From: Campylobacterales bacterium
GTDB taxonomy: Bacteria; Campylobacterota; Campylobacteria; Campylobacterales; QNZT01
Assembly: GCA_027023305.1 (NCBI GenBank)
Contig: JALVVR010000048.1
Coordinates: 233,579 to 297,578, forward strand
Direction of reading: 5' to 3'
Length of the DNA: 64,000 nucleotides
This document shows positions 7,648 through 11,706 of the stretch, piece by piece. Positions within the stretch are counted from its first letter, which is position 1; each line of letters begins with the position of its first letter. The notes beneath the pieces are model-generated. The model was given only the letters and a program-made list of their open reading frames with translations. It was not told the origin of the DNA and did not search any database. The position numbers were made by a program, and so were the translations under genes.

Positions 7648-8634
7648 TTAATTAACCACAAAAAACTCTCTAACCTCACTTTTACTCTCAAAAGCACTAG
7701 CCTCAAAAACTTCTTCTCCAAACTTCACTTTTCCTACCTCATCACTTTTTGATTTTGTGTAAGTTAGGATTATCTTACTAGCTAAAAGTTTATCCCCATC
7801 ACTTGCATCTTTATTGATAAGACTTAAAGGTCCTGATATATCTAAAGCTCTTGCGAATATGTACTTTGGATTATCTACTTTTGATATGTATTCGTTGTCC
7901 TCTTTATTTCTTCCTACTACTAGTTTTGCACCGTTTGGTAGTCTAAGGTGTCTTCCATGTTTTAAAAGTTCTACATCTTCTACTATAAACTCTTCATGTT
8001 TTATATGCTCTTTTATCTTTGTTGCCATAGCTTCTTGGGTTAATAAACATCCTCCACCTGGACTTTCAAATTCACTAAAGCCATACTCTTTAGCTAGGTT
8101 TAGTTGCACATCTCTACTTCTTCCACTTATGTCTAAAAGCTCCTCTCTATCTACCCAACCCTCTACCTCTGGTTTTGTAGGCTTCATAAGCTTTGCACTC
8201 ATAGGACGAAGTATCAAACCTCCCTCTTCATCTCCTGCTAGTTTTGTGACATTTTTGATAGCATCAGTTCTTTGACTCATAGGTCTTTGTCCTATCACTT
8301 CACCAGTTATGACAAAACTTGCATCATACTTTTCAAGCAGTCCTAAAGCTATCCTGAACATATTTGCATGACAATCTATGCAGGGATTAAAGTTTTTTCC
8401 ATAGCCATACTTTGGGTTGAAAAGTATATCTTTTACAAAGTTATCCTTTGCATCTACTATCTCAAAATCAGCTCCTACCATTTCGGCTCTGCTTTTTAGT
8501 ATCTCACTATTATCCTTACTACTTCCAAATCCTACATCTATGTAAATCGCAGTAACATCTATCCCCTGATCTGTAAGTAACTTGACACTTATCATGCTAT
8601 CAAGTCCTCCACTAAATAATGCTAAGGCTCTCAT
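7648..8634 (-). CDS. PP-loop ATPase, ThiI/MnmA-like, with extra C-terminal domain
   Basis: A 328-residue protein beginning with a PP-loop (S8-GGLDS-13), the ATP pyrophosphatase site of tRNA-thiolating and related enzymes. C-x2-C (NPCIDCH), a GEVIGQRPMSQ segment and ESPGGGCLLT follow. The last ~100 residues (ELLKHGRHLRLPNGAKLVVGRNKEDNEYI) recall the NFACT-R/DUF814 RNA-associated domain. Adenylating a tRNA base before sulfur transfer is the likely chemistry, with the pair of conserved cysteine sites as persulfide carriers; this is inference. The start overlaps the 3' end of dnaG by 23 bases. Confidence 0.72.
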   Translation of the reverse strand: MRALALFSGGLDSMISVKLLTDQGIDVTAIYIDVGFGSSKDNSEILKSRAEMVGADFEIVDAKDNFVKDILFNPKYGYGKNFNPCIDCHANMFRIALGLLEKYDASFVITGEVIGQRPMSQRTDAIKNVTKLAGDEEGGLILRPMSAKLMKPTKPEVEGWVDREELLDISGRSRDVQLNLAKEYGFSEFESPGGGCLLTQEAMATKIKEHIKHEEFIVEDVELLKHGRHLRLPNGAKLVVGRNKEDNEYISKVDNPKYIFARALDISGPLSLINKDASDGDKLLASKIILTYTKSKSDEVGKVKFGEEVFEASAFESKSEVREFFVVN

Positions 8635-10267
8635 AACTAACCAACTCCCCTTTTTGTAATTTTTTTATATTTTCATTTATTCGTCTAAGTAAAAAACTCT
8701 TCTTTTCAAACTCTATACTTCTATCTACCTTTATTTGCGACAATCTCTGCCTATTTTTCATGATAAGTCGCTTTAAGATTTGGTCTTTTAGCTCCTCTTC
8801 ACTAAGCTCTTTTATATCATCTCTTATCTCTATCTCCATAAGGTAAGGATTTTCCATTTCACCTTTTAAAATCGCTAAAAACTCAGCCTTATGTACTACA
8901 AAAACATCTTCCCCAACTGTATCTAAGATACTATCTATTAAATTTGGATGAGCTAAAAAAGTTTTTATCAAAGTAAGCTCACTTGTATCCTCCCTTCTAA
9001 CAAGTCTGTTTTGAGGATCTCTACTTTGTTTTGAAGTTCTTATAAGCTTTTCATCTATCTTTAAAAGTGAAGATAGATAGCCTTTATACTCCTCTTGCAA
9101 AAGTGGTGAAAGAGTAGAGAGATACTTCAAACTCTCTTTATAAGCATCCTCTTTTTGAAGTGGATCGTTAAGATTAAAACTAGAGATTATGATCTCAAAA
9201 CAAAACTCTATAAATCCCTTAGGTTTTGAAAATATCTCTTTAAGCTCTTTAACTTTGCTATCTTTTACCATATCAGCAGGATCTTTCCCACCTTCAAATA
9301 TCACAACTCCACCCTTAGCCCCCTTAGCAGAAAGCATAGTAGAAGCTTTAAATGCAGCATTTATCCCAGCTTTATCTCCATCATAAGCTATAATAACTCT
9401 GCTAGATCCTTTTAAAAGCATAGGTACATGAGAAGTGGTCAGTGCTGTTCCTAAAGTAGCCACTGCATTTGTAAATCCAGCTTGATGGAGCATGATAACA
9501 TCTAAGTAACCCTCACAAACTATCACTTCATCCATTTTAGAGATACTACTTCTAGCTTTATTAAATCCATAAAGAAGTCTTGATTTGTCAAAGATTTTAC
9601 TTTGAGGTGAGTTTATGTACTTTGCTGGGTGGTTTGAGATAGTCCTACCTCCAAAACCAACTAACTTTCCTCCACTGTTATATATAGGAAATGTTATACG
9701 ATTTGTAAATCTAGCATAAGCTCTACCACTCTCATCTTTTGCAACTACTCCAACTTCTAAGGCTTCATTTAGATTTATGCCTTTTGATTTTAAAAGATTT
9801 AGGCTCTCATGAGAAGCTGGGGCAAAACCTATCTCAAATTTCTCTACCGTACTCTCATAAATCCCTCGAGAAAAGATATACTCCTTAGCTTTAAAATCCC
9901 TATCAAAGTATTTTCTATAAAAGTAGTTTAACTCTTCAAGTATTTTTTTTTGTTTCTCTTTTGACTCATCAACCTCTGTGTAAGTTAGAGATATGTTGTA
10001 CTTTTGAGCTAGTTTTTCTATCGTTTCTGGGTAGTTTAACTTTTCATACTCCATCACAAACTTGATACTATCTCCACCAATTCCACAACCAAAACAGTGA
10101 AATATCTGCTTAGATGGACTTACCACAAAAGATGGTGTTTTTTCTCCATGAAAAGGACAGTTTGCTTTAAAGTTAGCACCACTCTTTTTTAGCTCCAAAT
10201 ACTCCCCAACTACATCAACAATATCAAGGCGATTTTTAAGGTTTTCTATCGAGCTTTGTTCTATCAT
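8612..10267 (-). CDS. dnaG: DNA primase
   Basis: A 551-residue primase with the N-terminal CHC2 zinc finger (CPFHGEKTPSF ... FHCFGCGIGGD), the core with KYINSPQSKIFDKS, and the Toprim motifs (VIVCEGYLDVIMLHQAGF, then IAYDGDKAG). It makes RNA primers for the replication fork with the DnaB helicase. The C-terminal helicase-interaction region is present, about 150 residues. Only 25 bases separate it from the divergent subtilase gene. Confidence 0.95.
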   Translation of the reverse strand: MIEQSSIENLKNRLDIVDVVGEYLELKKSGANFKANCPFHGEKTPSFVVSPSKQIFHCFGCGIGGDSIKFVMEYEKLNYPETIEKLAQKYNISLTYTEVDESKEKQKKILEELNYFYRKYFDRDFKAKEYIFSRGIYESTVEKFEIGFAPASHESLNLLKSKGINLNEALEVGVVAKDESGRAYARFTNRITFPIYNSGGKLVGFGGRTISNHPAKYINSPQSKIFDKSRLLYGFNKARSSISKMDEVIVCEGYLDVIMLHQAGFTNAVATLGTALTTSHVPMLLKGSSRVIIAYDGDKAGINAAFKASTMLSAKGAKGGVVIFEGGKDPADMVKDSKVKELKEIFSKPKGFIEFCFEIIISSFNLNDPLQKEDAYKESLKYLSTLSPLLQEEYKGYLSSLLKIDEKLIRTSKQSRDPQNRLVRREDTSELTLIKTFLAHPNLIDSILDTVGEDVFVVHKAEFLAILKGEMENPYLMEIEIRDDIKELSEEELKDQILKRLIMKNRQRLSQIKVDRSIEFEKKSFLLRRINENIKKLQKGELVSYESLSII

Positions 10268-10292: not shown

Positions 10293-11297
10293 ATGAAGAA
10301 GTATGTTTTTAGTTTGATTATTTTTTTGATTGTTGGTTGTGGTGGTGGAAGTACAATGAAGGGAGCTACGGGAGATTATTTTAAATATCAATGGAATATA
10401 AATCCAAGCAGTATCTATTATAGTAACGGTGAAGCTACAAGAGGAGCAGATATAAATCTAACCTTAGCTTGGCAACATAATAAAGGTGGTGGGGTAAAAG
10501 TTGCTGTTATAGATGATTGTTTTGATACAAGTGATGAAGATTTAAGAGATAACATCTATAAAACATATAATGTTAATACTGGATTATCATATGTGGGTGG
10601 AAATAATTGTCATGGAACAGAAGTAGCAGGAGTTTTTGGGGCAAGTGATAATGGATTTGGGATAGTAGGAGTCTCTCCAAAAGTAGAGTTAATACTTATA
10701 AGTTTTGATTTTAATAACACTAGTGATAAAGAAATAGCTTCTGGATTTGATTATGCTAAAAATCAAGGAGCAAAAGTTATAAATTGTAGTTGGGGAAGTG
10801 AACATACATCCCAAACTTTAAGTAATAAGTTAAAAGATATGAAAAATGCAAATATTACTGTTGTTTTTGCTAGTGGAAATGGAGATGCAAACAACACTAA
10901 AATAAATTTAGATGAAAATGGTATAGATGATGAGAGTGAAGATTCTAGTGTCATAGGAGTTGGGGCTACAAATGAGAGAAATGATGTTACTTATTATTCA
11001 AATTATGGATCAAATATAGATATCTTAGCACCAGGTGGAAGCAATATAGGTATTTTAACTACACAAGATAAAAACAACTATAGCTATGTCGTAGGTACAA
11101 GTTTTTCAGCTCCAACAGTAAGTGGAATCATAGCCTTAATGTATGCAAAAACTCCAAATCTAACTTTTGATGAGATCTATCAAAAGATAACTCAAACAAC
11201 TGATCAAATAGGTGGAACCAGTGCAGACTATAATGCAAGTGGTTTTGATACCTACCGAGCTTATGGTAAAATAAATGCAGGAAATGCTTTAAACTAA
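10293..11297 (+). CDS. Subtilisin-like (S8) serine protease lipoprotein without its own prodomain
   Basis: A 334-residue S8 protease with a lipoprotein signal peptide and lipobox IVGC (C16). The full catalytic set is present: D74 in VAVIDD, H107 in NNCHGTEVAG, S270 in GTSFSAP, and oxyanion N196 in ASGN. Most secreted subtilases carry an N-terminal I9-type prodomain of 60-100 residues that folds and inhibits them. Here the catalytic domain begins about 40 residues after the lipid cysteine, so no prodomain fits. The next gene, 16 bases on, looks like that prodomain. A TATAGT at 10276-10281 lies only 11 bases before the ATG, which would give an almost leaderless mRNA. The substrate is unknown. 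Confidence 0.87.
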   Translation: MKKYVFSLIIFLIVGCGGGSTMKGATGDYFKYQWNINPSSIYYSNGEATRGADINLTLAWQHNKGGGVKVAVIDDCFDTSDEDLRDNIYKTYNVNTGLSYVGGNNCHGTEVAGVFGASDNGFGIVGVSPKVELILISFDFNNTSDKEIASGFDYAKNQGAKVINCSWGSEHTSQTLSNKLKDMKNANITVVFASGNGDANNTKINLDENGIDDESEDSSVIGVGATNERNDVTYYSNYGSNIDILAPGGSNIGILTTQDKNNYSYVVGTSFSAPTVSGIIALMYAKTPNLTFDEIYQKITQTTDQIGGTSADYNASGFDTYRAYGKINAGNALN

Positions 11298-11313
11298 AAA
11301 AAGGACAAAACAA

Positions 11314-11706
11314 ATGAAATATATACTATCACTAACTATACTTTTAACACTTAATGCTTGTGCAAATGACTATTTTTACGAGTATGGCAAAAAAGTAGAA
11401 CTAACACCTATAAATACTCCATCAACTAGAAGTTTACATTCTAGTGATACAAAATACTACAAAACAAAAGATGGCAGAAAAATAGGTATCAAAAACGAGA
11501 TAATAGTAAAACTAAAAAAAGAAGTTGACCCAAAAGGATTTTTTCTAAAATACAATATAGAAAATACAGAACACTTAGGTTCAACAACTTATCTTTTAAA
11601 ACTATCTCCATCTCAAAATGTCTTTACCTTATCTCAAGAGATGTACAAAGATAGCAATACTGTATATGCAGTACCAAATAAAATTCAAAAATACTTTGCA
11701 AGATAG
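11314..11706 (+). CDS. Small lipoprotein resembling a stand-alone subtilase prodomain
   Basis: A 130-residue protein with a signal peptide and lipobox LNAC (C16), then a polar linker. Residues about 63-122 (IIVKLKKEVDPKGFFLKY ... TTYLLKLSP ... VYAVPN) have the strand-helix-strand and 'P.V.YA.PN' pattern of fervidolysin-like or I9-type subtilase prodomains. Prodomains are normally fused in front of the protease; this one is a separate gene directly behind it. The inferred role is a membrane-anchored folding chaperone and inhibitor acting in trans on the upstream protease. Its ribosome-binding site is AAAAAAGGAC, and pyrC follows after 9 bases. Confidence 0.6.
   Translation: MKYILSLTILLTLNACANDYFYEYGKKVELTPINTPSTRSLHSSDTKYYKTKDGRKIGIKNEIIVKLKKEVDPKGFFLKYNIENTEHLGSTTYLLKLSPSQNVFTLSQEMYKDSNTVYAVPNKIQKYFAR

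Follow-up and report, generated by a model that had tools for sequence, protein, structure and literature searches.

A subtilase of Campylobacterota with a probable trans-acting prodomain encoded by the adjacent gene

In the window analysed here, a stretch of 64,000 nucleotides from a Campylobacterales bacterium, a subtilisin-family (S8) protease gene lies next to the gene for a small protein (PRO), and this 130-residue protein very probably serves the neighbouring subtilase as its prodomain in trans. The pairing, which the initial annotation had offered as an inference, is now backed by fused forms, a split at the apparent maturation site, covariation between the S1 region of the protease and the P1 residue of PRO, correlated sequence distances and a fold match to ORF2, the partner of the Aeromonas sobria protease ASP. 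Split-prodomain subtilases of the ASP/ORF2 kind are well supported as a widespread feature of Campylobacterota: a trait described chiefly from a single protease of Aeromonas thus seems to be common here. Among the open papers searched we found no description of such a subtilase in Campylobacterota, which does not prove its absence from the literature.

The protease and its neighbour

The two open reading frames were found as originally reported, separated by 16 bp and with the following features:

10293–11297, + strand: S8 (subtilisin-family) protease gene; 334 amino acids, predicted lipoprotein without a cis prodomain
10329–10340, + strand: protease lipobox IVGC with Cys16; lipidation predicted from the sequence motif
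10512–10514, + strand: catalytic Asp74, from the alignment of relatives
10611–10613, + strand: catalytic His107, from the alignment of relatives
10878–10880, + strand: oxyanion Asn196, from the alignment of relatives
10929–10934, + strand: Asp213-Glu214, probably an acidic wall of S1; covariation with an Arg ending the prodomain
11100–11102, + strand: catalytic Ser270, from the alignment of relatives
11314–11706, + strand: PRO, stand-alone prodomain (proposed external chaperone/inhibitor); 130 amino acids, predicted lipoprotein
11350–11361, + strand: PRO lipobox-like LNAC with Cys16; sequence motif
11479–11685, + strand: PRO I9/fervidolysin-type domain, residues 56–124; Pfam, AlphaFold and Foldseek
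11686–11703, + strand: PRO C-terminal tail, residues 125–130, with Arg130 last; this Arg is predicted to occupy P1 in the active site of the protease

As an S8 enzyme the protease is complete: the Pfam Peptidase_S8 profile covers residues 65–307 (6.9e-45), and the assignment of D74, H107, N196 and S270 holds, these residues being invariant among the aligned relatives with the exception of truncated copies and one D74E replacement. The catalytic-domain profile begins at residue 29, 13 residues past the lipobox Cys16, and the divergent dnaG gene starts only 25 bp upstream of the protease gene; therefore, no cis prodomain is encoded before the protease, in agreement with the original reading, and an overlooked one can be ruled out. 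No P-domain was detected in the protease using Pfam: it is a short S8 enzyme, unlike the kexin-like proteases. AlphaFold modelled the protease alone poorly from a shallow alignment (mean pLDDT of 68.6), and this model was set aside.

Fold of the small protein

The initial annotation had recognised the pattern of a fervidolysin/I9-type prodomain in PRO, and this is upheld at the level of the predicted fold. The Pfam family Fervidolysin_NPro-like (PF22148) matches residues 59–122 of the window PRO at 15.9 bits (E 0.018), short of the curated cut-off of 21 bits, with the orthologues L024, L026 and L027 lying above it (best orthologue 8e-07). The AlphaFold model, computed from 13 sequences, displays a mean pLDDT of 82.9 and a pTM of 0.70: residues 56–124 are modelled in a beta-alpha-beta-beta-alpha-beta arrangement (pLDDT about 88–95), followed by a loose C-terminal tail. 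Comparison of this model with 350,542 PDB chains using Foldseek returned ORF2 as the top match (3wqb_B, probability 1.00, TM-score by target 0.69), followed by the PC1/3 prodomain on furin (9fid_D) and the PAM protease prodomain (8c4x_B); the E-values of these top three are modest (0.05–0.08), and hence the weight of this result rests on the ranking. Searching the PDB by sequence with PRO or a PRO profile gave no relevant structure, so that matches came from the fold search alone. The Pfam family ORF_2_N did not match the window PRO and matched 4 of 28 relatives below its cut-off (best 4.7e-04).

ORF2 is needed for the production of active ASP, inhibits ASP with an IC50 of 84.3 nM and has its C-terminal Lys placed at the ASP active site (PMC5638518), the complex being available as PDB 3wqb (J Biol Chem 2015;290:11130, as cited in PMC5638518). 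ASP is a kexin-like protease of subfamily S8B, and a 2022 survey described it as an exception among subtilases in having no N-terminal propeptide (PMC9549277). The initial annotation called prodomains in trans rare; ASP/ORF2 provides a characterised precedent for them.

Relatives and gene arrangements

With the small protein as query, 61 of 149 related genomes showed a match at E up to 1, and chance probably accounts for the weakest of these matches. In 397 genomes sampled evenly across the phylum, a profile search identified 30 with a match at E up to 0.001; named carriers are metagenome-assembled genomes (MAGs) of Campylobacterales, Sulfurospirillum and Sulfurovum. Three arrangements were assigned by reading the DNA around the matches. 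In type A, a stand-alone PRO adjoins a short lipoprotein S8 protease, with PRO upstream and usually overlapping it by 4 bp; alone among the type-A loci, the window has PRO downstream of the protease. Type B comprises an S8 gene followed downstream by a diverged PRO-like gene (9 of 10 cases), with a proprotein-convertase P-domain in most of the type-B proteases tested. In type C, a single chain has PRO at its N-terminus, ahead of the protease: such fused forms, for which the initial annotation had suggested a search, were found as 27 distinct proteins, of which two are truncated at contig ends.

Beyond the window, 56 adjacent PRO/S8 pairs were found in various genomic contexts. Their neighbours differ between lineages and therefore offer no clue to the substrate; the one repeated context is an upstream gene for a 132-residue regulator-like protein in L036, L038, L045 and L046.

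Split point and covariation with the S1 pocket

Arg is the last residue in 47 of the 59 distinct stand-alone PROs, and the aligned residue of the fused forms is Arg in 22/27; nearly all fused proteins enter the catalytic domain a few residues after this position, often with DP(Y/L)..W. As the end of the stand-alone proteins aligns with the Arg preceding the catalytic domain, the PRO gene stops at the apparent processing site. On the same alignment, the fused zymogens would be cleaved at this Arg.

Residues D213-E214 of the window protease presumably correspond to part of the S1-pocket lining of subtilisin, an assignment that we make by alignment and from general knowledge. Tallied over 81 protease/PRO pairs, PRO ends in Arg in 61/61 pairs with D213-E214, as against 5 Arg and 15 other residues in the 20 pairs without this motif (Fisher 1.9e-12, a value that ignores phylogeny). 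Nine of the 15 non-Arg pairs belong to the type-B clade, and thus shared ancestry contributes to the covariation; furthermore, one of the five Arg cases without D213-E214 (L009) is a truncated protease. With types A and C only and without L009, the counts are 61:0 versus 3:6 (about 6e-07, again ignoring phylogeny). Stand-alone type-A PROs with a different last residue are L088 (Lys) and L091 (Gln), and the partner proteases of both are without D213. This covariation between the C-terminal residue of PRO and an acidic S1 site predicts cleavage specificity straight from sequence.

Co-inheritance and history

Across 45 type-A pairs, the distances among PROs correlate with those among proteases (Mantel r of 0.79, against at most 0.22 in permutations), although part of this correlation is expected from species history alone. 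In genomes with two pairs, each PRO clusters with the clade of its own protease, for example L008 and L065 of G097 (both trees). The type-B proteases form one group in the S8 tree (93/77), and type A forms two groups with fused forms between them: well-supported branches force at least two changes of label, and hence cis and trans forms have interchanged. With the split found in dozens of Campylobacterota loci beside fused forms, these natural cis/trans pairs bear on what a prodomain must do and whether the link has to be covalent. The window protease groups among relatives whose PRO gene comes first (99/96), which indicates that its protease-first order is a derived reversal.

A second protease without a prodomain

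The genome of the window encodes a second lipoprotein S8 protease without a cis prodomain, located on contig C67 (L031/L107; 352 amino acids, TTG start) next to trpA and related to PRO-linked, PRO-first proteases (99/87). No second PRO was found near this gene or elsewhere in the assembly; as the assembly consists of 73 contigs, a second PRO could be missing from it. The third S8 protease of this genome (L033, 659 amino acids) is of a different, longer type. The notion that C67 is a contaminant contig is not supported, given its single trpA and similar GC content.

With two prodomain-less proteases and one PRO, a one-to-one pairing is not assured. PRO might mainly serve another partner such as the C67 protease, or serve both proteases, a reading that we regard as unlikely: it would fit the affinity of the C67 protease with PRO-linked enzymes, the single PRO of the assembly and also the gene order dnaG-PRO-pyrC in a genome of the same genus (G001, 65% complete), which retains PRO with no S8 gene beside it. 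However, PRO and the protease are adjacent and co-directional in the window, the window protease carries the D213-E214 motif that goes with Arg-ended PROs, and the fragmented assembly leaves room for a second PRO. That one lipid-anchored PRO is shared by the two proteases as folding helper and inhibitor is similarly improbable; if true, prodomain supply would control a small set of membrane proteases.

Comparison with known systems and proposed mechanism

The preferred reading, in which PRO is the trans prodomain of its neighbour, places the pair in the ASP/ORF2 kind. Both systems combine a subtilase without a propeptide with an adjacent, separate gene for a prodomain-like protein, located downstream of the protease in the window too, and export of the window PRO is predicted from its signal-peptide motif; both prodomain-like proteins end in a basic residue (Lys in ORF2, Arg in the window PRO, its active-site placement being predicted here), and ORF2 is the best fold match of PRO. 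The differences are that the window protease is short and has no P-domain, that both window partners are predicted lipoproteins, that sequence similarity between PRO and ORF2 is below detection and that type-A relatives put PRO first. With the cis prodomains of subtilases (fervidolysin PF22148, MEROPS I9, proprotein convertases) PRO shares its predicted fold, a conserved ending around HPN/HPD and, in the fused relatives, the position before the catalytic domain; unlike these, it is a separate gene product ending at the apparent processing site, and self-cleavage is thus unneeded.

Two further systems were compared by description. In Myxococcus, the subtilisin-like protease PopC is likewise held by a separate partner: PopD forms a complex with PopC, inhibits its secretion and is degraded under starvation (PMC6434023); unlike in the window pair, this control acts before export. 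The dentilisin complex of Treponema (PrcB-PrcA-PrtP) joins a lipoprotein subtilase with a small lipoprotein, PrcB, needed for production, and PrtP keeps its own propeptide (residues 19–158) (PMC8167434); unlike PRO, PrcB is larger (23 kDa) and is described as having no homologues outside oral Treponema.

The window pair most likely works like ASP/ORF2, with Arg130 in place of Lys. Both proteins would be exported by Sec and, judging by their motifs, lipidated at Cys16. The I9-type domain of PRO would then bind the unfolded or folding protease and aid folding of the catalytic domain, as suggested by its fold homology to ORF2. The PRO tail would occupy the substrate groove with Arg130 in the acidic S1 pocket formed by Asp213-Glu214, in keeping with the observed C-terminal position and covariation of this residue; bound in this way, it would resemble the self-cleavage product of the fused relatives, with the split removing the need for cleavage. 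PRO would remain in place as an inhibitor until degraded or displaced, and its loss would free an active, membrane-anchored and probably Arg-preferring protease.

PRO could instead be an inhibitor only, in the manner of the I9 inhibitors, that shields the periplasm against a protease which has folded already and that is dispensable for folding. The anatomy of the pair would serve this role equally well, and a C-terminal Arg in S1 argues for inhibition whilst being silent on folding. Nevertheless, we hold this to be quite unlikely: in all fused relatives the domain precedes the protease, the place from which prodomains of subtilases assist folding; ORF2, the top structural match, is needed to produce ASP (PMC5638518); and the type-A PRO is translated first, usually with the 4 bp overlap.

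Lipidation

In the window, two lipid anchors would hold PRO and the protease at the same membrane; in the system in general, lipidation is dispensable. The initial annotation had described both halves as lipoproteins, and the motifs are present in both window proteins, with an unusual Asn at position -2 in PRO; as the core of the system, dual lipidation did not hold up. A Cys lies within the first 30 residues in 45/45 type-A proteases checked, as against a Cys near the mature N-terminus in 11/46 type-A PROs, of which about 5–6 of the 46 look like lipoboxes (the window, L003 and L010; less clearly L016, L086 and L087). In most of the 46, the signal peptide is an ordinary one and the mature protein does not begin with Cys; PRO lipidation is thus sporadic. 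That control of activity by two membrane-tethered halves is the purpose of the design is accordingly very doubtful in spite of the few dual cases, and dual lipidation appears incidental to the system. Finally, the idea that the two genes are chance neighbours, with an unrelated small lipoprotein set between the housekeeping genes dnaG and pyrC, which are themselves unrelated to the protease, has almost nothing left to commend it against the other adjacent pairs in varied contexts, the covariation, the fold and above all the fused forms, which refute it in practice.

Minor observations

In L034, L098, L100, L101, L102, L103 and L104, an S8 gene, mostly encoding a P-domain, precedes a diverged PRO-like gene, which is the ASP/ORF2 layout within Campylobacterota. 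A PRO-like gene ending in Tyr (L013, 1474–1878) has no S8 gene within about 1.5 kb and adjoins a 485-residue open reading frame without a Pfam match. In L020 (416–1492), a type-A protease is divided into two open reading frames beside an intact PRO, reflecting either a decayed protease or an assembly error. One fused PRO-S8 protein (L073, 795–2939) bears four C-terminal DUF4214 stretches.

An apparent natural circular permutation of the subtilase is seen in L037 (4384–5481; also L055) and L039 (from 4384; also L009): the C-terminal segment GFDT.RAYGK.NA.KAV is found just behind the lipobox Cys and is absent from the C-terminus, and residues 21–47 of L037 match residues 347–373 of L005 at 67%. 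The observation covers two MAGs, with the C-terminus readable in L037 only. In the same-genus genome G001, DnaG (L002, 1–1413) carries a long intein-like insertion after HCFGC; the window DnaG (8612–10267) is without it.
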